Shown: in pieces, positions 27,523 to 40,597 of the stretch
How the letters are laid out: each line of letters opens with the position of its first letter
How positions within the stretch are numbered: the stretch's first letter is position 1
DNA from: Acidimicrobiia bacterium
GTDB lineage: Bacteria > Actinomycetota > Acidimicrobiia > Acidimicrobiales > Bin134
Length of the DNA stretch: 64,000 nucleotides
Direction of reading: 5' to 3'
Assembly: GCA_022819825.1 (NCBI GenBank)
Contig: JAJEGM010000037.1
Location: 1 to 64,000 of the forward strand
Notes under the pieces: generated by a model
Told to the model about the DNA's origin: nothing
Databases searched by the model: none
Seen by the model: only the letters and a program-made list of their open reading frames with translations
Position numbers and translations under genes: made by a program

Positions 27523-27993
27523 TCAGAAGAGCTTGCTGTTGTCCCAGTTTAGGATCTTGCCCACCGGGGTCAGCTCGATGGTGGAGTTGAGGTTCTTCTC
27601 GTAGTAGTCCCGGGTCTGCTCGGGCATCACTTCTTGGGCGGTCCGATACGCGGCGTACTTCTCATCGAGGGCAACAGCAATCCTCTGGGCCAGCTCGTCG
27701 GAGGGCTCAATCACCCGGCCCACGCACTCCACATGCACCGCCCGCAACTCAGCCCACCTCTCACCCGATTCCACAAGGAAGGAACACCGCTGGTCGTTGC
27801 GGACCCGCACCACCTTCTTGCCCCGAGTGACCATGTAGATCTTCTGATCCAGCACCACGTACCACACCGGCAGGGCGATCGGCTGGCCGTTGGCCCGAAG
27901 CGTTGTGAAGACGCCGTTCACCGAGTTCTCCAGCATCTCCCAGCACTCTTCGGGCGACATCCGCACCGTGAGCTTGGTCTTCTTCTCAGCCAT
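27523..27993 (-). CDS. Pyridoxamine 5'-phosphate oxidase-fold (PPOX) protein, possibly F420- or FMN-dependent
   Basis: 156 residues. The split beta-barrel pattern is VNGVFTTLRANGQPIALPVWYVVLDQKIYMVTRGKKVVRVRNDQRCSFLVESGERW. This is the usual actinobacterial flavin/F420-binding PPOX form and is followed by VHVECVGRVIEP. It probably reduces a small molecule, although family functions vary widely. It overlaps the upstream CoA-ligase gene by 8 bp and closes the minus-strand run that includes the redoxin and sulfatases. Confidence 0.8.
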   Translation of the reverse strand: MAEKKTKLTVRMSPEECWEMLENSVNGVFTTLRANGQPIALPVWYVVLDQKIYMVTRGKKVVRVRNDQRCSFLVESGERWAELRAVHVECVGRVIEPSDELAQRIAVALDEKYAAYRTAQEVMPEQTRDYYEKNLNSTIELTPVGKILNWDNSKLF

Positions 27994-29548
27994 CGACCAG
28001 CTCTCTCAGTTCTCGTCGGAGGATCTTGCCCGAGGCCGATTTGGGAATGGCATCGGTGAACCGCACCTCTCCGAGGTGCTTGTAAGTGGCCATGTGGTCG
28101 GCGACATGGGCCTTGACCGCCTGCTCATCGAGCGGGGAATCCGGGGCGGCAACCACGAATGCCAGCGGCACCTCGCCGCTCTCTTCGTCGGGGCGACCGA
28201 CCACCGCGGCATCGGTGATCTGCGGGTGGTCCAGCAGCAGCGCCTCCAACTCGGCGGGGGCCACTTGGAACCCCTTGACCTTGATGAGTTCCTTCAGCCG
28301 GTCGACGATGTAGACGTGGCCGTCGCCGTCGATCCGGGCGATGTCCCCGGTGTGGAGCCAGCCGTCCTCGTCGATGGTCTCGGCGGTGGCCGCCGGGTTG
28401 TTGAGGTACCCCTTCATCACCTGGGGGCCGCGGATCCAAAGCTCCCCCTCCACATCTATGGGCTGATCTTCACCGGAGTCGGGAGCAACGATGCGGGCCT
28501 CGGTATTGGCCACCGTCAGGCCCACCGACCCCGGCTTGAAATTGCCCGGCGGGGTGGCATGGGAGATAGGGCTGAGCTCGGTCATCCCGTAGCCCTGCAC
28601 CACCTCGCAGCCGATTCGGTCCGATGCCTCCGCGGCCACTTCAGCTCCCAGCGGGGCAGCGCCGGACAGAACCTGGCGCAGAGACGAAAGATCGAAATCG
28701 GCTACCGCGGGGTGTTTGGCCAACGCCAACACGATGGGGGGAACAGCGAAAAACCGGGTCACTTCGTGCCGTTCGATGAGCGAAAGCGCCTGGGCCAAGT
28801 CGAAACGGGGCATGGTCACCAGCGTCGCCCCGTGGTGAAGCTGGTCGTTCATGAGCACCTGCATGCCGTAGATGTGGAAGAAGGGCAGCACCGCCAGCAC
28901 CACATCGCTGCCCTGGGACGCCACCGACGAGGCGCACTGCTCGACGTTGTTCACCAGGTTGGCGTGGGTGAGCATCACCCCCTTGGGCAAACCGGTGGTG
29001 CCCGATGAATAAGGCAGCACCACCACGTCATTGTGGGGGTCAACATCGACCTGCGTGATTGGGTCTCCCATCAGCGACTGCATGGGAACGCCCATGGTCG
29101 GGCTGGCGGCGTCGATTACCACCACATCGCCTGCCACTCCGGCCTGGTCCATTGCCTCTTGGGCCTGGGGGGCGAACCCGTCGGCAGCAAAGACCAGCTT
29201 CGCCCCCGAATCGATGAGCTGGTAGGCGATCTCCTCCGCTCCGTAGGTGGGATTGACCGTGGTGACTGCTCCTCCCGCGACCGCCACCGCGTGGAACACC
29301 ACCGGATACCACGGGGAATTCGGCGCGATCAGCGCGGCGACATCGCCTCGCTGGAAACCGCCCGCGGCCAATCCCCCAGCCAGGGCATATACCGACCGCC
29401 CGAGTTGGCCGAACGTCAGCGACCACTCCCCCGGCCCGTCGATCACCGCGGCCTGGTCGGCCAACTCCGCGGCCCGCTCCAGTACAAACCCCGTGACCGG
29501 CTGGGAGCTCAGCGGCTCATCGGGCAAGGGGCTGGGATGAACCATCAC
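27986..29548 (-). CDS. AMP-forming acyl-CoA synthetase (4-coumarate-CoA ligase type)
   Basis: 520 residues. The adenylate motif is YSSGTTGLPKGVMLTHANL near residue 188, YGMTELSPISH follows, and the C-terminal domain carries GWLHTGDIARIDGDGHVYIVDRLKELIKVKGFQVAPAELE and the catalytic Lys in PKSASGKILRREL. It activates a carboxylic acid to an acyl-CoA via the adenylate. It starts 8 bp after the redoxin gene and overlaps the PPOX gene. In this setting it may activate acids released or oxidised by neighbouring enzymes. Confidence 0.93.
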   Translation of the reverse strand: MMVHPSPLPDEPLSSQPVTGFVLERAAELADQAAVIDGPGEWSLTFGQLGRSVYALAGGLAAGGFQRGDVAALIAPNSPWYPVVFHAVAVAGGAVTTVNPTYGAEEIAYQLIDSGAKLVFAADGFAPQAQEAMDQAGVAGDVVVIDAASPTMGVPMQSLMGDPITQVDVDPHNDVVVLPYSSGTTGLPKGVMLTHANLVNNVEQCASSVASQGSDVVLAVLPFFHIYGMQVLMNDQLHHGATLVTMPRFDLAQALSLIERHEVTRFFAVPPIVLALAKHPAVADFDLSSLRQVLSGAAPLGAEVAAEASDRIGCEVVQGYGMTELSPISHATPPGNFKPGSVGLTVANTEARIVAPDSGEDQPIDVEGELWIRGPQVMKGYLNNPAATAETIDEDGWLHTGDIARIDGDGHVYIVDRLKELIKVKGFQVAPAELEALLLDHPQITDAAVVGRPDEESGEVPLAFVVAAPDSPLDEQAVKAHVADHMATYKHLGEVRFTDAIPKSASGKILRRELRELVDG

Positions 29549-29556
29549 GAGGTGGC

Positions 29557-30576
29557 TCAGGCGGGCGTGATGCCGTGGAACGGGCTCCCAGCCGCCTGAT
29601 ACTCCTCGAGCAGCTTGAAGAACTCCTCGCCGAAGGGACTTTCACCCCGCAGCGGCATCGCCGCCCGGACCACGGTGAAGTCCAAAGGCGCGAGCTCGGC
29701 GGCGGCGTCGAAGTGGCGGACGGCCCCTTCCTCGTTTCCGGCCCGCCGCAGATGGGCGGCCAGTCGGAAATGCAGGCGGGCAGCGATCTCGTCCTCGTCC
29801 AGATCAGCGATCTCGCTGTCGGCGTCGTCGGGAACAACATCGTCGTGGACCCAGGCACGGATCTGGTCGAAGTGCCCTTGACAAGTTCGACCGGTGAATT
29901 CGCTAAACATGTCGCTTCCGAATTCGTTGGCATTGGGACGGGCGATTCGTCCCTGCTCGTCGATCCACACCACCGCGGGCACATTGCTTATGGCGTATGT
30001 CTCGGTCAGGATGTGGTTGGGGTCCATGAGCACCGGGTAAGTGATGCCATCGGCCAACACCCGTACCTCGTCGACGGCCTCGTCGATGGCCACTGCAATC
30101 ACCATAAAGCCGTCGTCGGCCATCTCATCGTGCAATTCCTGCCACCCGGGCAGGTCAAAGGCGCATCCTCACCAACTGGAGAAGGCGACCAAGAGCCGCT
30201 TCTTGCCGGCATAGTCCGAGAGGCTTCGCTCCGCGCCGTCGAGATCGGCAAGGGTGAAGTCGGGCGCCTGGCGATCTCGCAGAGCCGCCTGACGAGTGGC
30301 GTTGGGCTGGCCCAACACCACAACGCTGGCGTCAGGGTCAATCACGGTGGGCTGATCCACTGCATTGGCCACCGCGGCCAAATCGAGCTTGTCGCCCACC
30401 CGGATGGCCGAGCCGTCTCCGACCAGTACGCATTGATCGCCGCGGCAAAGCCCCTCCGGTTTCAGCGTCCAGCCGACGGCGGCGGAGAGGGCATCGGGCT
30501 CGATCAGCGGGCGGCCATCCGCCCATTCGCCGGTGGCAGTGGCCACCTCGTCACCCAGGATGGTGATTGTCGTCAT
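29557..30576 (-). CDS. Redoxin/TlpA-like protein with in-frame UGA read as selenocysteine (Sec136)
   Basis: 339 residues if the UGA at codon 136 is decoded as selenocysteine. ATG 30576 has AAGGAG 8 nt upstream. After an N-terminal region of about 95 residues, a redoxin domain begins (APDFTLADLDGAERSLSDYAG), followed by LLVAFSSW, the UGA codon, then G-C-AFDLPGWQELHDEM. The UGA therefore occupies the first position of a redox W-U-G-C motif. The cis-Pro region NVPAVVWIDEQGRI lies about 80 residues on, and a helical C-terminus (DEDEIAARLHFRLAAHLRR) follows. Both halves are in the same frame with no other stop, and a SECIS-like hairpin lies just downstream of the UGA. A true nonsense mutation is the main alternative. 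It sits between a binding lipoprotein gene and a CoA ligase. Confidence 0.82.
30138..30154 (-). promoter_or_regulatory. Putative bacterial SECIS hairpin
   Basis: Starting 15 nt after the UGA, the minus strand forms a perfect 6-bp stem CCTGCC/GGCAGG closing the loop CGGGT. The apical loop occupies +21 to +25 from the UGA and has a G in its second position. Known bacterial SECIS elements lie immediately 3' of the UGA, with the apical loop about 16-37 nt away and a G among its first two bases. The structure was found by eye and not folded by program. Confidence 0.7.
30169..30171 (-). other. UGA recoding site (selenocysteine codon 136)
   Basis: The minus strand reads TGG TGA GGA TGC here (Trp-UGA-Gly-Cys). 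The codons before and after the UGA both encode conserved-looking redoxin sequence in one uninterrupted frame. The UGA replaces the residue expected to be a redox-active Cys. Confidence 0.75.
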
Positions 30577-30598
30577 GCCAGGAACTCCTTGATTTCGG

Positions 30599-32101
30599 CT
30601 ACTGCACAGGATCGGTCGGAATCGGTTCGCCAACCGGCAAATAGGTTCTGACCTCGGGGAAGTACTCGTAACGGCGCACCAACGAGCCAGCCGAGTGCTT
30701 GTCGGGCGAGAGGCTGGCATTGATCATGGCGGGGAGGTCGAACGTACCGAGTCCCTCTGCCGCGGCCTTGAATGTCTCCGGGGTGATGTTGCCGCCGGCT
30801 GCCTCCAAGATCTTCACGGTTAGGGCGAAGGCCCGGCAATGGTTGACCACACCGTTGACGATGTCGTCGTTGGTGGTATCGAGAGGCTCGTCGCTGGATC
30901 GCTCTTCAAATATGGCAAGGCACTGCTGGACGCCGGAATCGGCCAGGGCTTCCTCGCTGGTCGGCTTGTTGGTGGTGACGGCAAAGGTGCGGGCCATGTA
31001 CTCGTCTTCCAGGCCTTGATCGTCGGCGATTGTCAAGCGGTCGGCGGCCTGTCCATTGGTGTGGGCAATGCGCACCTCCCAGCCAATTCGCTGCACTGAC
31101 CCGATGATGCCGTACACGTTGGAGAGGTTGAGGATCAGATCAACCCCGTCGGCCTCCATTCGCGTGGAGATGTTGTCGGTGTTCTGCTCGTTCTGAACGG
31201 TGTCAGTGGTGGGTGCGCCCGGGGAGTAGACGCCGACGACGTTGATGCCCGCCTCCTCTAACAACGGCTCTACCGCGTCGGCATACTCCTTGTCGGGGGG
31301 AGCCTCGTAGTAAATGCCCACTCGGTACCCGTCAAGATCGCCGGCCCGGATCATCTCGGTGGTCCCGCCGACCCGCTGGCGGGTTTGCTTCATCTCAGTG
31401 GCAAAGAACAGGCCGTTGGACCGCTCTTGGCGCTCGGTGTTCTCCCCGAAATGGCCCACATAGGGGTGTCCGTGAAGCTCGGTTATGCACAGGGCGTTGT
31501 CTTCGAGGAACTGGCCGATCACCACGAACACCTCTTTGTCCTCGAGTAACTCGGTACACACCCGCTCGCTGTCGGCGGTCCCAATGGGCAGGAAGGAAAC
31601 CACATGGACGACGACGTTGCGGCCGTGGATGCCGCCCCGCTCATTCAGGTCTTCGGACAGTGCGGCGTATAGGTCATGCACCGGGAAGATGCCGATGTCG
31701 ATGCCGAACATCTCGTTGATCTGCACCGGATCGATGGCGGCCACGCCAATAGCGATCTCGGTTTCGGTCACCCCCTGGTAGCTGGCAATGAGCTCCACCG
31801 GTGTGGGGGCTGGCGTCGGCTCAGCGGGGGTCTCAGCCGGCTCGTCGGCCGGTTGCTCGGCGGGCTCCTCAGCAGGTTCGTCAGCCGGCTCCTCCGCGGG
31901 TGCTTCGGCCGGCTCGTCGGCCGGTTGCTCGGCGGGTTCCTCAGCCGGTGCAGCCGTCTGCTCCTCAGCCGCGGCTGGCTCAGCGGTGTCGGCCGCGCCG
32001 TCATCGTCGTTGCCACCGCAGGCCGCGGCCACCAACGCCAAGACGACGAGCAGCCACCACCATCTTCTAGCGGTCCCAAATCCCCTGTTCTTGCCGGGCA
32101 T
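30599..32101 (-). CDS. LivK-type substrate-binding lipoprotein (second copy)
   Basis: 500 residues from ATG 32101; a second ATG two codons upstream has GGAG only 2 nt away and is less likely. The signal peptide has an Arg-rich start, a hydrophobic core WWWLLVVLALVAAAC and a lipobox Cys near residue 25. About 70 residues of Glu/Pro/Ala repeats (units such as EEPAEQPADEPAE) form an extended linker. The binding-protein core begins near LIASYQGVTETEIAIGVAA. No permease is adjacent on this strand. The second LivHMG fusion operon (35469-40597) has no binding protein, so this is its likely partner. It sits between sulfatase and redoxin genes. Confidence 0.9.
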   Translation of the reverse strand: MPGKNRGFGTARRWWWLLVVLALVAAACGGNDDDGAADTAEPAAAEEQTAAPAEEPAEQPADEPAEAPAEEPADEPAEEPAEQPADEPAETPAEPTPAPTPVELIASYQGVTETEIAIGVAAIDPVQINEMFGIDIGIFPVHDLYAALSEDLNERGGIHGRNVVVHVVSFLPIGTADSERVCTELLEDKEVFVVIGQFLEDNALCITELHGHPYVGHFGENTERQERSNGLFFATEMKQTRQRVGGTTEMIRAGDLDGYRVGIYYEAPPDKEYADAVEPLLEEAGINVVGVYSPGAPTTDTVQNEQNTDNISTRMEADGVDLILNLSNVYGIIGSVQRIGWEVRIAHTNGQAADRLTIADDQGLEDEYMARTFAVTTNKPTSEEALADSGVQQCLAIFEERSSDEPLDTTNDDIVNGVVNHCRAFALTVKILEAAGGNITPETFKAAAEGLGTFDLPAMINASLSPDKHSAGSLVRRYEYFPEVRTYLPVGEPIPTDPVQ

Positions 32102-32141
32102 GTTCATACTCCAATGCTGTGGCCGGATATGTGTAGTGGCG

Positions 32142-33719
32142 TCACTTGAGTCCCAAACGAGCGTATTGCTCATCGGGCGCGTCCACATCGTTGAGCGCGG
32201 TGTGGAGCAAATCAACCATCTCTGCGGCTGATGGCTCGCTGCTTCGGTTTTCCTGTTCGCTGGGATCGACGTCGAGGTCGAACAGGAAGTGGCGGTTATT
32301 GCAGGCATTCACCGCTACCCACAGCGGGAGCGTGTCGCCCGGCTCGTAGGGCTGGCGGATCACCGGAACCTCCGAACCAGGCATGTTGTCGAGCCAAGCC
32401 CGGTGGTCAGGCGGAGGCAGGCCAGGCATGCCGATGTCGCCGAACGGCATGGTGGACCATCGGTTGGACCACATGGAGATGGGAAAGTTCTCGCCCTCGG
32501 CTCCCCGGGCGTACTTGTGCTGGCCATCGGTCACCTGCACCCATCCGCCGAACACCCCGCCCAGCGCCCACTCTCGGATGGAGTCAGCCTCGCCGCTCAG
32601 CAGCGGGGCCATGGAGCGGCCGTGGGTGGTCTGCATCACTTCGGCATCGAAGATGTCGGCCACGGTGGCGAAGATGTCTACGTTGGTGGTCAGCGCCTCG
32701 CAGGTTCCCCCGCCGGGTTTGCCGGGCCACGAAATCAACAGCGGCGTGTGGCCCAGCGGCTCGTATTGGGGCACGCCCGGCTTGCCCCAGATGTCGCGGC
32801 CCTCCCGCTCGTCGCCCAGGTAGTGGCCGTGGTCGGTACACACGATCAGCGCGGTGTTGTCCCACAGGTTCTGTTCGTCGAAACGATTGAGGATCTGTCC
32901 GAACCAGTGGTCGATCATCGACAGCTTGGCCCCGTAGTTGGCCCGCACGTGCCGGCCCTCTTTCTCCGAGAAGTGGCCGGAGGCGATGCCCCCGTCGATG
33001 TAGGGGGGCCAGATAATCCACTCCTCGTTCCCCCACGGCTCGTCGTGATAGCGGCCAGCCCACGGCGCGGGGGTGTCGAACGGCTCGTGGGGGTCGAATT
33101 CATCCACGAACATGAACCACCGGTCGTGATGCGGCGTGTCCTCAGCCAAGAACCGGGCCGCCGAGCTCATGGTCATCGGTCCGGGATAATCCTCCTCGGC
33201 CCGGAAGAACGTGCGCGACCGGTCATAGGCCCGATCCATCTCCTCGAGCCCCCACATCTTCGACCACCACCAGCCGCCCTTTCGGGCCGGCATAGTAGGG
33301 GTGCCGGCCCAAGAGGGGTCGTAGTACGTGCGCCACGGATCGCCCTCGTGGCCCCGCAGGTAGTCCCAGCAATGGAAATCGGTGTGGTAGTTCTCCCCGC
33401 CGGTCTCGAACAGGTGGGGATGATCGGTGACCAGTGCGGTGGTCACGCCTTGGTGGCGCAGCACCCGGGTGATGGGCTCCTCCCACAGCTCGATCGAACC
33501 CCACGGCTTCCACAGAAAGTCCAGCGCCCCGCACAAGATGTCGTGGCGAGCCGGCATACAAGGCAGCGACCCCGTCACATGGCGAGTGAACCGGGTGGCC
33601 CGCTCAGCCGCAAAACGGTCCAGGTTCGGCGTCTCGAACTCGGTGCCGCCGTAGCTCCCCAACATGTGCCGGTTCAGCGAATCCAGGAGGATGACCGCGA
33701 CATTGGAGGGTGTTCCCAT
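32142..33719 (-). CDS. Type I sulfatase (tandem copy B)
   Basis: 525 residues from ATG 33719, preceded by AAGGGGAC. The metal motif VILLDSLNRHMLGSYGG opens the protein. The formylglycine signature is PCMPARHDILCG (Cys about residue 51), and the late metal cluster is CTDHGHYLGDEREG with a Lys/His region after it. No signal peptide. It is very closely related to the upstream sulfatase at 33842; the two genes' 5' thirds are almost identical in DNA. Its stop is 40 bp before the binding lipoprotein gene. It probably desulfates an organic sulfate ester inside the cell. Confidence 0.9.
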   Translation of the reverse strand: MGTPSNVAVILLDSLNRHMLGSYGGTEFETPNLDRFAAERATRFTRHVTGSLPCMPARHDILCGALDFLWKPWGSIELWEEPITRVLRHQGVTTALVTDHPHLFETGGENYHTDFHCWDYLRGHEGDPWRTYYDPSWAGTPTMPARKGGWWWSKMWGLEEMDRAYDRSRTFFRAEEDYPGPMTMSSAARFLAEDTPHHDRWFMFVDEFDPHEPFDTPAPWAGRYHDEPWGNEEWIIWPPYIDGGIASGHFSEKEGRHVRANYGAKLSMIDHWFGQILNRFDEQNLWDNTALIVCTDHGHYLGDEREGRDIWGKPGVPQYEPLGHTPLLISWPGKPGGGTCEALTTNVDIFATVADIFDAEVMQTTHGRSMAPLLSGEADSIREWALGGVFGGWVQVTDGQHKYARGAEGENFPISMWSNRWSTMPFGDIGMPGLPPPDHRAWLDNMPGSEVPVIRQPYEPGDTLPLWVAVNACNNRHFLFDLDVDPSEQENRSSEPSAAEMVDLLHTALNDVDAPDEQYARLGLK

Positions 33720-33841
33720 GGTGTCCCCTTGCTCTTCCCCTGCCATGCGGCCACCCAAACTACCCTGCACGGACAAGGGCGCGCCGACCGCTGACGCCGA
33801 ACGACCTCGACGAGTTGGCGGGTCCCGTTAGCCCTGGCCGA

Positions 33842-35416
33842 CTAGCTCAGCCCCAGCCGGGTGAATTGGTCGTCGGGGGCTTGCAACTCGCTGAGCGCAG
33901 CATGGAGCAGTTCGACCATCTCCCGGTCGCTCGATTCGCCGCTGCGATTCTCCTGCTCATCGGGGTCGATGTCGAGGTCGAACAGGAAATGGCGGTCGTT
34001 GCAGTTGTTCACCGTCACCCATAGCGGGAGGGTGTCGCCCGGCTGGTAGGGCTGGCGGATCACCGGCACCTCCGAGCCTGGCATCGTGTCGAGCCAGGCA
34101 CGGTGGTCGGGAACCGGAAGGCCGGGAAAGCCCATTTCGCCGAAGGGCACGGTGGACCATCGGTTGGACCACATGGAGATGGGGAAGTTCTCGCCCTCGG
34201 CTCCCCGGGCGTACTTGTGCTGGCCGTCGGTCACCTGGACCCATCCGCCGTAGACGCCGCCCAGCGCCCACTCCCGGATGGATTCGGCCTCGCCGGTAAC
34301 CAGAGGGGCCATGGAGTGGCCGTGGGTGGTCTGCTTCACCTCGGCGCCAAACACGTCGGCCACGGTGGCGAAGATATCCACGTTGGTGGTCAGCGCCTCG
34401 CAGGTTCCCCCGCCCAGTTTGCCGGGCCACGACATCAAAAGCGGCGTGTGGCCCATCGGCTCATACTGGGGCACTCCGGGCTTGCCCCAGACGTCACGGC
34501 CCTCCCGCTCCTCGCCCAGATAGTGGCCGTGGTCGGTACACACGATCAGCGCGGTGTCGTCCCACAGGTTCTGCTCGTCGAAGCGGTCCAGGATCTGACC
34601 GAACCAGTGGTCGATCATCGACAGCTTGGCCCCGTAGTTGCCCCTTACGTGGCGAGCCTCCCGCTCGGTGAGGTTCCCTACGCTGATGGCCCCGTCGGCG
34701 TAGGGGGGCCAGATGATCCACTCGTCGTCCCACGCCTCATCGTGGTAGCGGCCGGCCCACGGCGCGGGCGTGTCGAACGGCTCGTGGGGGTCGAACTCGT
34801 CCACGAACAAGAACCACCGGTCGTGGTGCGGGGCGGCCTCGGCCAAGAACCGGGCCGCCGCGCTCATAGTCATCGGACCGGGATAGTCGTCCTCGGCCCG
34901 GAAGAAGGTGCGGGCCCGGTCGTAACCCCGATCCATCTCCTCCATGCCCCACGTCTTGGTCCACCACCAGCCGCCCTTTTTGGCCGGCATGGCCGGAGCC
35001 CCCACCCAGGTGGGGTCGTAGTAGGTGCGCCACGGGTCAGTGGTGTGGCCTCGGAGGTAGTCCCAACAGTGGAAGTCGGTGTGGTAGTTCTCCCCGCCGG
35101 TCTCAAACAGGTGGGGATGATCGGTGACCAGCGCGGTGGTCACGCCTTGGTGGCGCAGCACCCGGGTGATGGGCTCCTCCCACAGCTCGATCGAACCCCA
35201 CGGCTTCCACAGAAAGTCCAGCGCCCCGCACAGAATGTCGTGGCGAGCCGGCATACAAGGCAGCGACCCCGTCACATGGCGAGTGAACCGGGTGGCCCGC
35301 TCAGCCGCAAAACGGTCGAAGTTTGGCGTCTCAAACTCGGTGCCCCCATAGCACCCCAGCATGTGCCGATTCAGCGAATCCAGCAGAACTACCGCAACGT
35401 TGGATGGTGCCCTCAT
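33842..35416 (-). CDS. Type I sulfatase (tandem copy A)
   Basis: 524 residues from ATG 35416; a TTG immediately upstream is in frame but less likely. The architecture equals the sulfatase at 32142: VVLLDSLNRHMLGCYGG, formylglycine PCMPARHDILCG, late CTDHGHYLGEEREG. Between about 35121 and 35350 the DNA matches 33421-33650 with very few changes, more closely than later parts of the gene. It leads the minus-strand run and diverges by 52 bp from the second transporter operon, so the two may share regulation. Confidence 0.9.
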   Translation of the reverse strand: MRAPSNVAVVLLDSLNRHMLGCYGGTEFETPNFDRFAAERATRFTRHVTGSLPCMPARHDILCGALDFLWKPWGSIELWEEPITRVLRHQGVTTALVTDHPHLFETGGENYHTDFHCWDYLRGHTTDPWRTYYDPTWVGAPAMPAKKGGWWWTKTWGMEEMDRGYDRARTFFRAEDDYPGPMTMSAAARFLAEAAPHHDRWFLFVDEFDPHEPFDTPAPWAGRYHDEAWDDEWIIWPPYADGAISVGNLTEREARHVRGNYGAKLSMIDHWFGQILDRFDEQNLWDDTALIVCTDHGHYLGEEREGRDVWGKPGVPQYEPMGHTPLLMSWPGKLGGGTCEALTTNVDIFATVADVFGAEVKQTTHGHSMAPLVTGEAESIREWALGGVYGGWVQVTDGQHKYARGAEGENFPISMWSNRWSTVPFGEMGFPGLPVPDHRAWLDTMPGSEVPVIRQPYQPGDTLPLWVTVNNCNDRHFLFDLDIDPDEQENRSGESSDREMVELLHAALSELQAPDDQFTRLGLS

Positions 35417-35468
35417 CAAATCCCCCGGCTTGCCTCTGGCATCGGCTCGATCTGGTCACGCTAGTCTC

Positions 35469-37706
35469 ATGGGCCATCTAAGCCTGCTCAATTCAGGGGG
35501 ACAGTTGGCCGAGGATCGTGCCCAGGGTGAGTCGATTGACGCACTGGCGTCCTCGGTGCTCGAGGGCGAGGCCGCGCGGCGCGACGCCCAGAAGGCCGAT
35601 GTGCTGTTCCCCGACGATCTACTGCCCGGGGTGGGCGGCGAGCAGACCACCCTCAAGGAGGGCCTGCGCAAGGGCGGATTCCAGACCTTCATCGTGCTGC
35701 TGGCGCTGAACAGCCTCGACGAACTGGAGAACAGTGCGGTGGCCATCTTGGGGCCCGACATCGGCGAGAGCTTCGGGGTGAGCGACGGGGCCATCACCGC
35801 CATCAGCACCGCCTCGCTCATGTTCTTTGTGCTGGGTGCCGGCCCGATGGGGTGGCTGGCCGACCGCTTCCGCCGCGGCCCTATCGTGGGCATCGCCAGC
35901 GGGGCCTTCGCCGCGTTCAGCGCCCTGTCGGGGGCGGCGGTGAATGCCCTGATGTTTTTCTTCATGCGGTTCTTCGCCGGCATGTCCAAGGCCAACACCA
36001 TCACCGTGCATCCCAGCATGCTGGCCGACACCTACCCGCTTCAGACCCGGGGCCGCATGTACGCCACCAACGCCGGGGTGGGCCGGGTGTTCTCCGCCAT
36101 CAGCCCGATCCTGGCCGGGGGCATCGCGGTGTGGATCGGCGGCGACGACGGCTGGCGGTGGGCGTTCTACCTGCTCGGGCTGCCCACCGCGGCGTTGGCG
36201 TTCTTAGCCTTCTTCCTGCGGGAGCCGCCCCGGGGCCAGTGGGAGCAGAAGCACGTTCTGGGTGCCGGGCTCAAGCAGGACAACAAGATGCCCATCTCGG
36301 TGGAGGCCGCCTTCACCCGCATCTGGAACATCGACACCATCCGCAACATGACCATTGCCTTTGCGGCCATGGGATTCGCCCTCTTCCCAGCCGGCTCGAT
36401 CCAGTCGTTCTTCTTGGAAGAGGAGTTCGGCCTCGACGCCTTGGAGCGCGGCTTGGCGGTGGCCCCCGCTGGCATTGGGCTGATCATGTTCTTGCCGTTC
36501 GTCGGACGCCGGTTCGACGCCACGTTTCGCAAGGACCCCGACCGGGCCATCCGGCTCATCGGCATCCTCCTCCTGCCCATTGGCGTGCTGGTTCCCATCC
36601 AGTACGCCATGCCCAACCTCGCTTTGTTCATGATTCTGTCCGCGATCAACTCCACCTTCTTGGGCGGAGCTTTCGCCATGGTGCAGCCCGCCATCCAAGC
36701 GGTGTTCCCCTACCGGCTGCGGGGCATGGGCACTGCGTTTCTGACGTTCTTCATGGTCATGGTCGGCGGTGTGGGAGGCAGCATCATCGCCGGCTTCCTC
36801 CAAAACGAGCTGGGCGAGCAAACCGCCATCACCATCATCACCGCCACAGCCATGCCGATCGGGGCTTACTTCGTGCTGCGAGGGGCCAACCGGCTGCGCC
36901 GCGACCTCTCGTTGGTAGTCAGCGAGCTGCGGGAAGAACAGAACGAGGAGCGCCGCCAAGCCGAGACAGACCCCGACGACATCCCGGCCATCCAGGTGAC
37001 TGATGTCGATTTCAGCTACGGGCAAGTGCAGGTTCTGTTCGACCTCGGGTTTGAAGTACGCAAGCACGAGACGTTGGCCCTATTGGGCACCAACGGCGCG
37101 GGGAAGTCCACCGCGCTCAAGGTGACCACCGGCCTGGTGACCCCTGAGCGAGGAGTGGTGCGTCTGCACGGCCAGACCGTTACCTTCGCCACACCTGAGC
37201 AGCGGGCGGCCATGGGGCTGCACATGCTGCCCGGCGGAGCCGGAGTGTGGAGCGACCTGTCTATCCGCGACAACCTGCTCATGGGGGCTTACGCCTATCG
37301 CAGGGATCCCAGCGACCGGGACCGTCGCATCGAAAGGGTCTTCGAATTGTTCCCCGACCTGGCCCACCGGCCTAAAGAGCGGGCGGGCAACCTCTCGGGT
37401 GGCCAGCAGCAGATGCTGGCGCTGGCCCGGGTGATGCTGCACGAGCCCGAGGTGCTGATGATCGACGAGTTGTCGCTGGGTCTGGCCCCGGTGGTGGTGC
37501 AGTCGCTACTGGAGACCATCGAGGAGCTCAAGGACCAGGGCCAGACCATGATCATCGTCGAGCAGTCCCTGAACGTGGCGCTGGCCATTTCCGACCGGGC
37601 CGTGTTCCTGGAAAAGGGACAGGTGCGCTTTGAGGGGCCGGCCCAGGAGCTGGCTGAACGAGACGATCTGGCCCGGGCGGTTTTCCTGGGCACCGAGGGC
37701 GGCTGA
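35469..37706 (+). CDS. MFS permease fused to a LivF-type ABC ATPase (second copy)
   Basis: 745 residues from ATG 35469. It has the same order as the protein at 10885: an about 50-residue cytoplasmic lead, 12-helix MFS region (GWLADRFRRGPIVGIASGAFAAF, a canonical A-loop), then a LivF domain from about residue 515. The LivF part has Walker A GTNGAGKSTALKV, signature LSGGQQQMLALARV and Walker B VLMIDELSLGLAP. The two copies are clearly paralogous but well diverged, so the fusion is old and maintained. It overlaps the LivHMG gene by one base. A TAGTCT box lies just before the ATG. Function: ATPase of an ABC importer with an attached MFS module of unknown role. Confidence 0.9.
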   Translation: MGHLSLLNSGGQLAEDRAQGESIDALASSVLEGEAARRDAQKADVLFPDDLLPGVGGEQTTLKEGLRKGGFQTFIVLLALNSLDELENSAVAILGPDIGESFGVSDGAITAISTASLMFFVLGAGPMGWLADRFRRGPIVGIASGAFAAFSALSGAAVNALMFFFMRFFAGMSKANTITVHPSMLADTYPLQTRGRMYATNAGVGRVFSAISPILAGGIAVWIGGDDGWRWAFYLLGLPTAALAFLAFFLREPPRGQWEQKHVLGAGLKQDNKMPISVEAAFTRIWNIDTIRNMTIAFAAMGFALFPAGSIQSFFLEEEFGLDALERGLAVAPAGIGLIMFLPFVGRRFDATFRKDPDRAIRLIGILLLPIGVLVPIQYAMPNLALFMILSAINSTFLGGAFAMVQPAIQAVFPYRLRGMGTAFLTFFMVMVGGVGGSIIAGFLQNELGEQTAITIITATAMPIGAYFVLRGANRLRRDLSLVVSELREEQNEERRQAETDPDDIPAIQVTDVDFSYGQVQVLFDLGFEVRKHETLALLGTNGAGKSTALKVTTGLVTPERGVVRLHGQTVTFATPEQRAAMGLHMLPGGAGVWSDLSIRDNLLMGAYAYRRDPSDRDRRIERVFELFPDLAHRPKERAGNLSGGQQQMLALARVMLHEPEVLMIDELSLGLAPVVVQSLLETIEELKDQGQTMIIVEQSLNVALAISDRAVFLEKGQVRFEGPAQELAERDDLARAVFLGTEGG

Positions 37707-40597
37707 TGGAAATCGCCTCTGCCTCCGTGGTCGGGACCTGGATCACCCAGCAGTTGGCCTTCAACGGGGTAGTCAATGGCTTGGTGACCGGGCTGGTTGC
37801 CTTGGGGATCGTGCTGATCTACCGGTCCACCCGGGTCATCAACTTCGCGGTGGGCAACATGGGCATCATCTCCGCTTCGATGATGGCGCTGCTGGTGCTG
37901 AACTACGGCTGGGGGTTCTGGCTGGCGCTCGCGCTATCGCTGGCGCTGGGGGTCTTGTTCGCCGCCGCAGTGGAGCTGACGGTGATCCGCCGGCTGTTCA
38001 ACTCTCCCCGGGTGATTGTGCTGGTGGCCACGGTCGGCATCGCCCAGCTGGCCCAGCTGGTGATCTCCCAGCTTCCCGACATCGAGGCCGCCGGCCAGAG
38101 ATATCCGGTGGTGGTCGGTAGAGTCTGGGAAGACGTTTGGTTTACCGAAATCCGGGTACGCGGTCCCCAGCTCATCATTCTCATCGCAGTGCCGGTTTTG
38201 GCCCTGCTATTGGGCTGGTTGATGAACCGAACCTCATTCGGCAAGTCGGTAGCCGCTTCGGCCAACAACCCCGACCTCTCCCGGCTGTCGGGGATCAATC
38301 CCAAAACGGTGTCCACCTTCGTATGGGTGATGGCCGGGATGTTGGCCTCCCTGTCGATGATCATGCTCTCCGGGTCAACCGGACAGATAGCGGGCTTGGC
38401 CAACCTGGGACCACAAACGCTGGGCAAGGCCATGGTGGCTGCCGTGCTGGCCTCGATGGTTTCCTTCCCGCGGGCCATGGTGGCCGGGATGTTGATCGGT
38501 TTCCTCGACGCTCTGTTCCGGTTCAACTTCTTCACCGAAACCGGACTCATAGACTTCGTCATCTTCTTGGCGGTGCTGGTGGCCGTGTATTTCCAAAGCC
38601 GCAGCCAAGGCGAGACCGGCGTGTTCTCATTCGCCCCCAAGGTGCGGGCCATCCCCGAGCGGCTGCGCCAGGTGTGGTGGCTGCGACACCTGTCCAAAAT
38701 CGCTTTGGGGGCGCTTTTGGTGCTCGGCATCGTGCTGGTGCAGCTCCCCGGCATCACCAACCTGCCGTCCCGCCAGCTGCTGTACGCCACCGTGCTGTGC
38801 TTTGCGGTCTGCGGACTGTCGGTCACCATCATCACCGGCTGGGCCGGCCAGCTCTCCCTGGCCCAGATGACCTTCGCCGGCATGGGGGCGCTGTTCGCCG
38901 CCAGCCTCAAGCGGGGACTGTCCATGGACTTCACCGTGGGAACCGGGTTCTTGCCCGGCGACGCGTTGTCGTACGACTTCTTCGACGTCCAATTTGAGAC
39001 CGGCGGTATCCCGTTCATGGTGGCCATTCCGGTAACCGCGCTGTTCTCTGCGCTGGTGGCGGCCGTGATAGGGGTCGGATCACTTCGGGTTCGCGGCCTC
39101 TATCTGGCGGTTACCACATTTGTGTTCGCCCTGGCCGCCCAGCAGTACCTCTATCGGAGGCCGTTCTTCACTGGGGGCAACACGTCGTCGGTGTCGTTCC
39201 GCCGGGGCGAGTTGTTCGGCCTCGACCTGAAGTCGCAGAAGACCTACTACTACGTGTGTCTGGCCTTGTTGCTGATTGCGGTGATCATCGTCAGCCGACT
39301 GCGCCGATCGGGGGTTGGCCGCACCATCATCGCAGTGCGCGACAACGCCGACTCCGCCTCGGGCTACACGGTTGGGCCGGTGCGCTCCAAGCTGTCTTCG
39401 TTCGCGTTGGCCGGGGGCATCGCCGGATTGGGCGGAGCAATGCTGGCCGGCTTGGTGCAGAACGTCCCGATCAGCGAGCGGTTCTTCCAGGTGGAGGACT
39501 CATTGCAGCTTGTGGGCATGGTGGTGATCGGGGGTCTCGGCTCGTCGGTTGGCGCAGTGTTGGGGGCGATTTGGGTCTACGGCCTCCCGAATCTGTTCAA
39601 CAATGCGGAAACCGTTGCCCTGTTCTCCTCCAGCATCGGGCTCCTGCTGGTGCTGATGTACTTTCCGGGCGGGCTCATCCAAATCGGCTACAGCGCACGA
39701 AACGCCCTCATCGGCCTAGCCGAGCGACGACTCGGACCCGATCCCGGCGGCAAGACCATCCAAGCCGCTCCCACCAGCCTGACCCGGGTTGACGATCCCC
39801 GGCCGGCCACCGATCCCATGCTGGCCGGGCACGACATCAGTGTGCGGTTCGGCGGCGTGAATGCAGTTTCGGAGGCCACCGTGGTGGTCCATCCCGACGA
39901 GATCGTGGGCCTCATCGGTACCAACGGCGCCGGCAAGTCCACATTCATGAATGCGGTGGGAGGCTACGTGCCGTCCAGCGGCCGAGTGGAGCTGCTCGGC
40001 ACCGACATCACCCGGCTTTCTGCTTCCCGTCGGGCCCGAGCCGGGTTGGGACGCACCTTCCAAACCGCGTCGCTGTTCCCGGAGCTGACGGTTCGAGAAA
40101 CAGTGCAGGTGGCCTTGGAGGCCCGGGGCCGCACGCCACTCCTGAGCACGGCCCTGCACCTCCCCCACACATTTACCTTGGAACGGCGGCGACGGGCCGA
40201 AGCCGACGAGCTCATCGACTACTTGGGGTTGGGGCGCTACGCGGATTCCTATATCAGCGACTTGTCCACCGGGACCCGCCGCATCGTGGAGATCACTGGG
40301 CTGCTGGCCCTGGGCACCCGGGTGCTTTGCCTCGACGAGCCCACCGCTGGAGTGGCCCAGCGGGAAACCGAGGCATTCGGACCGCTTATCGTCAATATCC
40401 GCCGGGAACTGGGTGCCGCCATGCTGATCATCGAGCACGACATGCCCCTCATCATGAGCATCAGCGACCGGGTGTATTGCCTGGAAGCCGGCAAGGTCAT
40501 CGCCGAGGGATCGCCCTCCGAGGTCCGCAACGACCCCCTCGTGATCGCCAGCTACCTCGGCACCGACGAGCGCGCCATCGCCATCAGCGACGGCTGA
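37706..40597 (+). CDS. LivH-LivM-LivG triple fusion (second copy)
   Basis: 963 residues. LivH (FNGVVNGLVTGLVALGIVLIYRSTRVINFAVGNMG), LivM (IITGWAGQLSLAQMTFAGMGALF ... VRDNADSASGYTVGPVRSKL) and LivG (Walker A GTNGAGKSTFMN) follow in order. The ABC signature region is DLSTGTRRIVEITG, again lacking the usual SGGQ. Walker B is VLCLDEPTAGVAQRE. No binding protein follows; the next gene is a convergent amidohydrolase. The lipoprotein at 30599, in the divergent sulfatase run, is the best candidate partner. Confidence 0.92.
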   Translation: MEIASASVVGTWITQQLAFNGVVNGLVTGLVALGIVLIYRSTRVINFAVGNMGIISASMMALLVLNYGWGFWLALALSLALGVLFAAAVELTVIRRLFNSPRVIVLVATVGIAQLAQLVISQLPDIEAAGQRYPVVVGRVWEDVWFTEIRVRGPQLIILIAVPVLALLLGWLMNRTSFGKSVAASANNPDLSRLSGINPKTVSTFVWVMAGMLASLSMIMLSGSTGQIAGLANLGPQTLGKAMVAAVLASMVSFPRAMVAGMLIGFLDALFRFNFFTETGLIDFVIFLAVLVAVYFQSRSQGETGVFSFAPKVRAIPERLRQVWWLRHLSKIALGALLVLGIVLVQLPGITNLPSRQLLYATVLCFAVCGLSVTIITGWAGQLSLAQMTFAGMGALFAASLKRGLSMDFTVGTGFLPGDALSYDFFDVQFETGGIPFMVAIPVTALFSALVAAVIGVGSLRVRGLYLAVTTFVFALAAQQYLYRRPFFTGGNTSSVSFRRGELFGLDLKSQKTYYYVCLALLLIAVIIVSRLRRSGVGRTIIAVRDNADSASGYTVGPVRSKLSSFALAGGIAGLGGAMLAGLVQNVPISERFFQVEDSLQLVGMVVIGGLGSSVGAVLGAIWVYGLPNLFNNAETVALFSSSIGLLLVLMYFPGGLIQIGYSARNALIGLAERRLGPDPGGKTIQAAPTSLTRVDDPRPATDPMLAGHDISVRFGGVNAVSEATVVVHPDEIVGLIGTNGAGKSTFMNAVGGYVPSSGRVELLGTDITRLSASRRARAGLGRTFQTASLFPELTVRETVQVALEARGRTPLLSTALHLPHTFTLERRRRAEADELIDYLGLGRYADSYISDLSTGTRRIVEITGLLALGTRVLCLDEPTAGVAQRETEAFGPLIVNIRRELGAAMLIIEHDMPLIMSISDRVYCLEAGKVIAEGSPSEVRNDPLVIASYLGTDERAIAISDG

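Follow-up and report, generated by a model that had tools for sequence, protein, structure and literature searches.

The window, a 64,000-nt stretch of Acidimicrobiia DNA, carries on its minus strand a redoxin gene with a single in-frame UGA codon, followed closely by a potential RNA hairpin and flanked by genes for a CoA ligase and two sulfatases. The features of the locus, with the evidence for each in brackets, are as follows.

29557..30576, minus strand: predicted selenoprotein gene for a UGC-motif, ResA-like redoxin, 339 codons plus the TGA terminator (translation, Pfam, alignment, fold model)
30283..30576, minus strand: N-terminal domain, residues 1-98, with no Pfam name (Pfam, alignment, fold model)
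30445-30447 and 30430-30432, minus strand: codons of Cys44 and Cys49 (facing strands of a predicted beta hairpin)
29938..30273, minus strand: redoxin domain (AhpC-TSA / ResA-like), about residues 102-213 (Pfam, PDB sequence and fold matches)
30169..30171, minus strand: in-frame UGA, codon 136, predicted selenocysteine U136 (UGA/Cys alignment of 138 genes)
30163..30165, minus strand: codon of Cys138, putative resolving Cys of the U-G-C motif (alignments)
30138..30154, minus strand: bSECIS-like hairpin CCUGCC-CGGGU-GGCAGG, positions 18-34 when the U of UGA is 1
30144..30148, minus strand: apical loop CGGGU with predicted cross-loop pair C24:G27 (30148:30145), apical G25-G26 and unpaired U28 (covariation)
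29560..29880, minus strand: C-terminal helical region, about residues 233-339 (fold model)
30599..32308, minus strand: upstream ORF, 22 nt before the redoxin ATG, start codon uncertain (ORF list)
27986..29548, minus strand: AMP-binding CoA ligase, 8 nt past the redoxin stop (Pfam)
32142-33776 and 33842-35419, minus strand: two sulfatases, further upstream (both PF00884)

The redoxin frame runs from an ATG at 30576 to a terminal TGA at 29557-29559 and contains only one internal TGA. An earlier note on this DNA had proposed, without giving a strand, that one frame lies open on both sides of the UGA at 30169-30171; this holds, on the minus strand, and so does its placement of the UGA between Trp and Gly-Cys, the residues around codon 136 being LLVAFSSW-U-GCAFDLPGWQ when the frame is translated through. 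Because the match to PF00578 (AhpC-TSA; 60.1 bits, cut-off 26) covers residues 102-212 and spans the UGA, the halves before and after it form one redoxin domain, also as proposed. A plus-strand ORF over the same DNA (29575-30651, 358 aa) was dismissed as a mere shadow of the coding strand, since it is the minus strand that bears the AhpC-TSA match. Also within the gene, upstream of the UGA, is a 12-bp perfect inverted repeat, GTGGTGTTGGGC-CA-GCCCAACGCCAC, at 30296-30321. Eight relatives of the genus were compared at this repeat, and since it is unchanged in two of them (L030 and L031) and altered in the other six, it is probably a product of chance within coding sequence.

Relatives of the gene were collected at several levels. 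A search of 298 genomes of the order gave some match in 273, mostly distant redoxins. The sample comprised 65 of the 66 close cases (>200 bits), 25 matches forming a second group, and the best 80 of 292 loci on named contigs; among these best 80, the nearest named relatives are 96% identical and are Acidimicrobiia metagenome-assembled genomes, and Candidatus Poriferisocius aerobius has a relative that is 80% identical. Removal of identical coding sequences reduced 170 genes to 138, including the window gene, and comparing the DNA near the site by a stricter standard eliminated no others. Of these 138 distinct genes, 113 carry UGA at the aligned codon and the remaining 25 carry Cys, with no other residue, which bears out the expectation of Cys or Sec at this site in homologues. 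The first group, to which the window gene belongs, holds 88 UGA and 25 Cys genes, and the second group holds 25 UGA genes. Each of the 113 UGA genes has exactly one in-frame UGA. The Cys gene L093 (genome G046) has an internal TGA far downstream, and an alignment check confirmed that the site itself is Cys. On a quick tree, the fewest Sec/Cys changes number eight, four of which are forced by starred branches. In a phylum-wide search, 14 of 296 genomes match at E 1e-30; five of the 14 lie outside the class, and all five have a UGA in a matched stretch, accompanied in one (G519) by two TAG codons. Cys138, two residues past the UGA, shows no variation in either alignment, A1 (24 rows) or A2 (47 rows).

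Selenoproteins of this kind have been described before. Table 2 of a 2008 publication lists "Prx-like (UGC-containing)" selenoproteins of pfam00578 with 46 sequences from the Global Ocean Sampling (GOS) survey (PMC2398784), and a review from 2026 includes an entry named "UGC-containing TlpA disulfide reductase family protein" (PMC13188914). As these lists describe them, such families resemble the window protein in having a redoxin domain (pfam00578 or cd02966), the UGC motif and Cys homologues; the window protein has both the pfam00578 domain and U-G-C, and is set beside the GOS family by description only. The closest named family is NCBIfam NF041054 (WAxxUGC_long, "ResA-like WAxxUGC motif-containing protein"), in which, as in the window protein, a U-G-C redoxin follows a related Cx4C N-terminal domain. 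However, the window protein reads F-S-S-W-U-G-C in place of W-A-x-x-U-G-C, with Phe at the family's Trp, and its C-terminal part differs. It scores 198.8 bits against this family, below the cut-off of 300, with the best stretch at residues 25-217. Since five other first-group proteins likewise score 191.9-236.4 bits, the window gene is, on profile scores, a member of a sister subfamily of NF041054. Of three second-group proteins scored, two exceed the cut-off and one reaches 272.9 bits; the second group, which includes NF041054 members, has the Cx4C motif and the cross-loop pair described below in 25 of 25 genes. A literature search found no paper joining selenocysteine, selenoprotein and Acidimicrobi.

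The AlphaFold2 model of the protein (47 rows) has a mean pLDDT of 94 and a pTM of 0.91. A ResA-type thioredoxin fold was found both in this predicted fold and by sequence search of the PDB. Foldseek ranks ResA first (24% identity, E 1.2e-10, target TM-score about 0.78), followed by TlpA/DsbE-type proteins and, lower in the list, by peroxiredoxins (3drn, 5enu). ResA has a CxxC motif and is anchored outside the cytoplasm. The window protein shares the thioredoxin fold of ResA/TlpA/DsbE-type proteins but, unlike ResA, has UxC and additional N- and C-terminal parts; its N-terminus begins with a strand from residue 2 and shows, by eye, no hydrophobic stretch or signal peptide. In the C-terminal helical region, a TPR_2 match at residues 266-297 falls below the cut-off (20.3 versus 27 bits).

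The N-terminal domain contains a Cx4C motif (GLCRGDQC, Cys44 and Cys49) that is present in 138 of 138 genes across both groups. Because these two cysteines lie on opposing strands of a predicted hairpin (E42-45 and E48-50), the model suggests that they may form a redox pair. Modelled alone, the domain has a pLDDT of 89, and a fold search against the PDB gave 111 matches up to E 10, none at or below 0.001 and the best at E 0.41. The domain occurs in one copy in its own genome. Fifty class-level matches to it were listed, of which 20 loci were fetched, and in all 20 it is accompanied by a UGA-containing UGC redoxin motif. One UGC gene, L219 (G673), has C-x8-C spacing, apparently by a four-residue insertion in the hairpin.

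What the redoxin domain does is a point on which two readings can be weighed. The usual peroxiredoxin active site is Pro-x3-(Thr/Ser)-x2-Cys. This motif is not retained in the window protein, which has LVAFSSWU; its relatives have Ala or Ser at position -3, and no Pro stands seven places ahead of the site in the 24 rows of A1. The view that the protein is primarily a peroxiredoxin-like peroxidase, and not a thiol-disulfide oxidoreductase, can draw on PF00578 being its best Pfam match and on the GOS authors' naming of UGC proteins as Prx-like (PMC2398784, in the table cited above), yet the missing motif and the ResA and DsbE-type proteins at the head of the fold matches, though 3drn and 5enu follow in the list, make it the less likely of the two. 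The two activities are not mutually exclusive.

The RNA just past the UGA contains the 6-bp perfect hairpin that the earlier note had reported, CCTGCC-CGGGT-GGCAGG, with the loop at +21 to +25. By a published rule for bacterial SECIS elements, as worded in one source, the apical loop lies 16-37 nt from the UGA (PMC10778597); the loop here, 21-25 nt past the UGA and with a G in it, lies inside that range. A G is found at the second loop position in 113 of 113 UGA genes, though the Gly/Val codon fixes that base. The stem pairs, positions 19-23 with 29-33, are coded by Leu-Pro-(Gly/Val)-Trp-Gln, and silent positions were tested because most stem bases are fixed by the protein. For each gene with LP[GV]WQ, a null was drawn 1000 times from that gene's own codon usage with pooled pseudocounts, which left out two UGA genes and nine Cys genes lacking the peptide. 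The stem together with the cross-loop pair was found in 104 of 111 UGA genes, where 12.8 (sd 3.3) were expected, an approximately eightfold excess, and in 5 of 16 Cys genes, where 2.2 (sd 1.4) were expected, somewhat above the null.

In the loop, the Pro and Gly/Val codons place their third bases at positions 24 and 27, and in 107 of the 113 UGA genes these two bases form a Watson-Crick pair (C-G in 72, A-U in 24 and G-C in 11); of the other six genes, five have A-C and one has A-G. The pair is present in 8 of 25 Cys genes. When the set was thinned to less than 65% identity, it was present in 37 of 37 UGA genes versus 3 of 15 Cys genes. On permutation of third bases, the 27 pairs of the Gly genes were never reached in 10000 draws, and the 10 pairs of the Val genes were reached in 38 of 10000. 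In the thinned UGA genes, the mutual information between positions 24 and 27 is 1.17 bits, the highest among pairs of the 15 wobble positions (next, 0.35), and in the 15 Cys genes the pair falls outside the top six. Six independent pairs of starred branches were available within the UGA genes, of which an average of 5.9 covary in the same direction and none in the opposite one (sign test on the six contrasts, median p 0.03). The corresponding tree-independent contrast between UGA and Cys genes has four starred pairs (p 0.25), too few for significance.

Changes elsewhere in the stem follow the same course. Five genes use Leu TTG and Gln CAA in place of CTG and CAG, which turns the outer stem pair into U-A and keeps it. 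At pair 21-31, L092 carries C-G in place of G-C, and a near-invariant Gln is replaced by Glu in this gene. A held-out set consisted of the 20 loci fetched by their N-terminal domain; one of them, L201, is the same gene as L170, leaving 19 new genes, and all 19 have both the UGA at the site and the cross-loop pair. One of them, L217 (G270), has the loop AGTTT, with Pro CCA, Val GTT and an A-U cross-loop pair, a loop absent from the first 138 genes. A search with the Rfam SECIS models gave no match in 29900-30400 up to E 10, nor in ten relatives at gathering scores; because no small curated collection can include every bSECIS element, this says little.

A hairpin of this kind might also be a functionless by-product of the LP(G/V)WQ peptide and G+C-rich codon usage. 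Its stem does lie within codons of conserved residues, and the five pairs are kept in 12 of 16 Cys homologues with LP[GV]WQ. However, this explanation would have to produce by chance the excess over the synonymous-codon null in UGA genes, and a cross-loop pair that uses silent third positions only, that sits at its null in Cys genes (6 seen, 5.6 expected, n=16), that separates UGA from Cys genes in the thinned set and that recurs throughout the held-out genes; it would also have to account for L092, which stays paired despite its Glu. It is accordingly given very little credence, and the hairpin is, on these comparative grounds, under selection as RNA. The SECIS-like character that the earlier note had assigned to it thus gains the support of covariation and silent-site constraint, both weaker in Cys homologues.

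The hairpin can be compared with the SECIS element of E. coli fdhF, taken as a control, which also lies just past its UGA and whose GGUC loop has ends, G22 and C25, that could pair; the fdhF-type loop GGUCU recurs within the window gene's family. The window loop lies 2 nt further downstream than that of fdhF, and its family has an unpaired U 3' of the loop, whereas fdhF has a bulged U17 5' of it; no counterpart of that 5' bulge is evident in the window hairpin, a point against the SECIS reading. In E. coli, as described in the portion of one report consulted, the bulged U of fdhF is essential and U17 and G23 are SelB binding sites (PMC8659212); SECIS elements are also treated, at least in part, in PMC12013277, PMC1088965 and PMC11881835. 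No description of a covarying cross-loop pair was found in the literature searched, in which subscription journals were thinly covered, and an E. coli case may well exist there. The design seen here has a stem of five or six pairs, a two-base apical turn (G-G or G-U), a covarying silent cross-loop pair and an unpaired U on the 3' side, and it describes the hairpins read within the order and elsewhere in the class. None of the further UGA genes read from the source genome shows it.

The earlier note had made its reading depend on Sec machinery encoded elsewhere in the genome, and all of that machinery is there. Profile searches covered the whole source assembly (57 contigs, 3.44 Mb). On a 3.9-kb contig outside the window is a tRNA-Sec (67.5 bits, cut-off 47), which ARAGORN also calls SeC with anticodon tca. 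SelA (400.4 bits, cut-off 267.9) and the adjoining SelB (276.8 bits, cut-off 242.25) also lie outside the window, and so does SelD (354.9 bits, cut-off 125), which has one in-frame UGA of its own. The genome thus holds SelA, SelB, SelD and tRNA-Sec, the set expected of a bacterium that makes selenoproteins. It also has eight matches to PF00578, three of which, besides the window gene, contain a UGA: two are peroxiredoxin-like with a TxxU motif, and the third is TlpA-like with UxxC and, by eye, a lipoprotein. Together with SelD, these genes on other contigs (L002, L003, L007 and L026) are probable further selenoproteins.

The allele was compared with the machinery across the 66 genomes that have the gene. 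SelA is present in every one of the 51 UGA-allele genomes but in only 3 of the 15 Cys-allele genomes (Fisher p 9e-11). Of the 51 matches, 48 exceed the family cut-off and three are partial (G172, G055 and G070); a 19.7-bit match in the Cys-allele genome G210 was left uncounted, and G294, with the gene on two contig fragments, was counted as UGA from the genome search alone. A tRNA-Sec of at least 57 bits is present in 48 of 51 UGA-allele and 3 of 15 Cys-allele genomes. This 57-bit line was our choice, set at a gap in the scores; the Rfam gathering score of 47 would admit another five Cys-allele genomes (G269, G194, G023, G111 and G140, at 47.5-50.4 bits), whose matches are presumed to be other tRNAs. 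The UGA-allele genomes G119, G195 and G070 have no tRNA-Sec at or above 57 bits, possibly through gaps in the drafts. The machinery does not by itself fix the allele, since three Cys-allele genomes (G143, G289 and G046) still have both SelA and tRNA-Sec; Sec may have been exchanged for Cys there within a Sec-using background. Two genomes of the same genus, G035 and G085, lack a close copy of the gene and retain SelA and tRNA-Sec.

These data also bear on the nature of the UGA codon itself. A redoxin gene of the Cys type could in principle be split here by a genuine stop codon, by the lesion of a pseudogene or by an error in sequencing: UGA ends 7 of 10 neighbouring ORFs checked, and the Cys homologues share the same architecture. 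Such an account is highly improbable in view of a UGA recurring at the catalytic position in 113 of 138 genes, none with a second one in frame, the silent-site constraint on the hairpin, the co-occurrence with SelA, and the 30 invariant columns after the UGA versus 8 before it in A2. A sequencing error, raised earlier as a possible refutation, is excluded because the same UGA recurs in 113 distinct genes from many assemblies. Reading of the UGA as Trp or Cys by a suppressor or a change of code, although readthrough to Cys would fit the Cys homologues too, has hardly any likelihood against a complete Sec machinery with a UGA-bearing SelD, known selenoprotein-type sites (Prx TxxU and UxxC) in the genome's other UGA genes read, and UGA terminating both this gene and 7 of 10 neighbouring ORFs, because of which it is not a general sense codon here. 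We conclude, from comparative sequence evidence, that the window gene is very probably a SelB- and SECIS-dependent selenoprotein gene in which the UGA at codon 136 is read as Sec.

The genes around it give little guidance to function. An operon with a binding lipoprotein, a CoA ligase and sulfatases had been proposed; the AMP-binding CoA ligase and the two sulfatases stand on their Pfam matches, whereas the name "binding lipoprotein" does not, the upstream ORF having no Pfam match at E 1e-10. The sulfatases are adjacent and very similar by eye, apparently a tandem duplication. Beyond them, 35361-37706 (781 aa) encodes an MFS transporter fused to an ABC ATPase, directly followed by 37706-40597 (963 aa), in which permease parts are fused to another ABC ATPase, of the branched-chain amino-acid type. 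Of the 14 nearest loci (L119-L132), all but L131 and L132 retain the upstream ORF, CoA ligase and sulfatases, 12 in total, and this set was not seen next to the gene in 46 further loci (L133-L178). Recurring by eye in subsets of L133-L198 are an MFS transporter (18 loci), enoyl-CoA hydratase (15) and acyl-CoA dehydrogenase (9). Only the nearest relatives share the setting among CoA ligase, transport and sulfatase genes, and it offers no general indication of function.

With the UGA read as Sec, a course of events can be proposed for the gene and its product. During translation, SelB would bind the hairpin just past the UGA and deliver Sec-tRNA(Sec) to codon 136. The product would be a 339-residue ResA/TlpA-like oxidoreductase of thioredoxin fold, probably cytoplasmic, whose active site would read W-Sec-Gly-Cys. 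U136 would attack a disulfide or a peroxide through its selenol, Cys138 would resolve the intermediate, and the N-terminal pair Cys44/Cys49 may hand on electrons. Such a protein would act, probably in the cytoplasm, as a selenol-dependent reductase of disulfides or peroxides. The fuller proposal, in which a distinct bSECIS design is joined to a cytoplasmic three-part selenoenzyme whose structurally unmatched N-terminal domain feeds electrons through Cys44/Cys49 to U136, is put forward as a tentative one. At the level of sequence, UGA/Cys exchange, a covarying hairpin, the machinery and a predicted fold all support the selenoprotein assignment.

While the UGC kind of selenoprotein is already known from the literature and from NCBIfam, what this gene adds, through its many relatives, is an unusually clear demonstration of its signal. 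Since the cross-loop pair joins two silent positions, and since natural Sec and Cys forms exist (113 and 25 genes), coding constraint and RNA constraint can be separated. The bacterial SECIS loop is hard to define by sequence, and the pair supplies a rule for it that can be tested on this group's SelB. Standard annotation is prone to split such UGA genes into two. For the Acidimicrobiia, the findings show a complete Sec trait and several probable selenoproteins.
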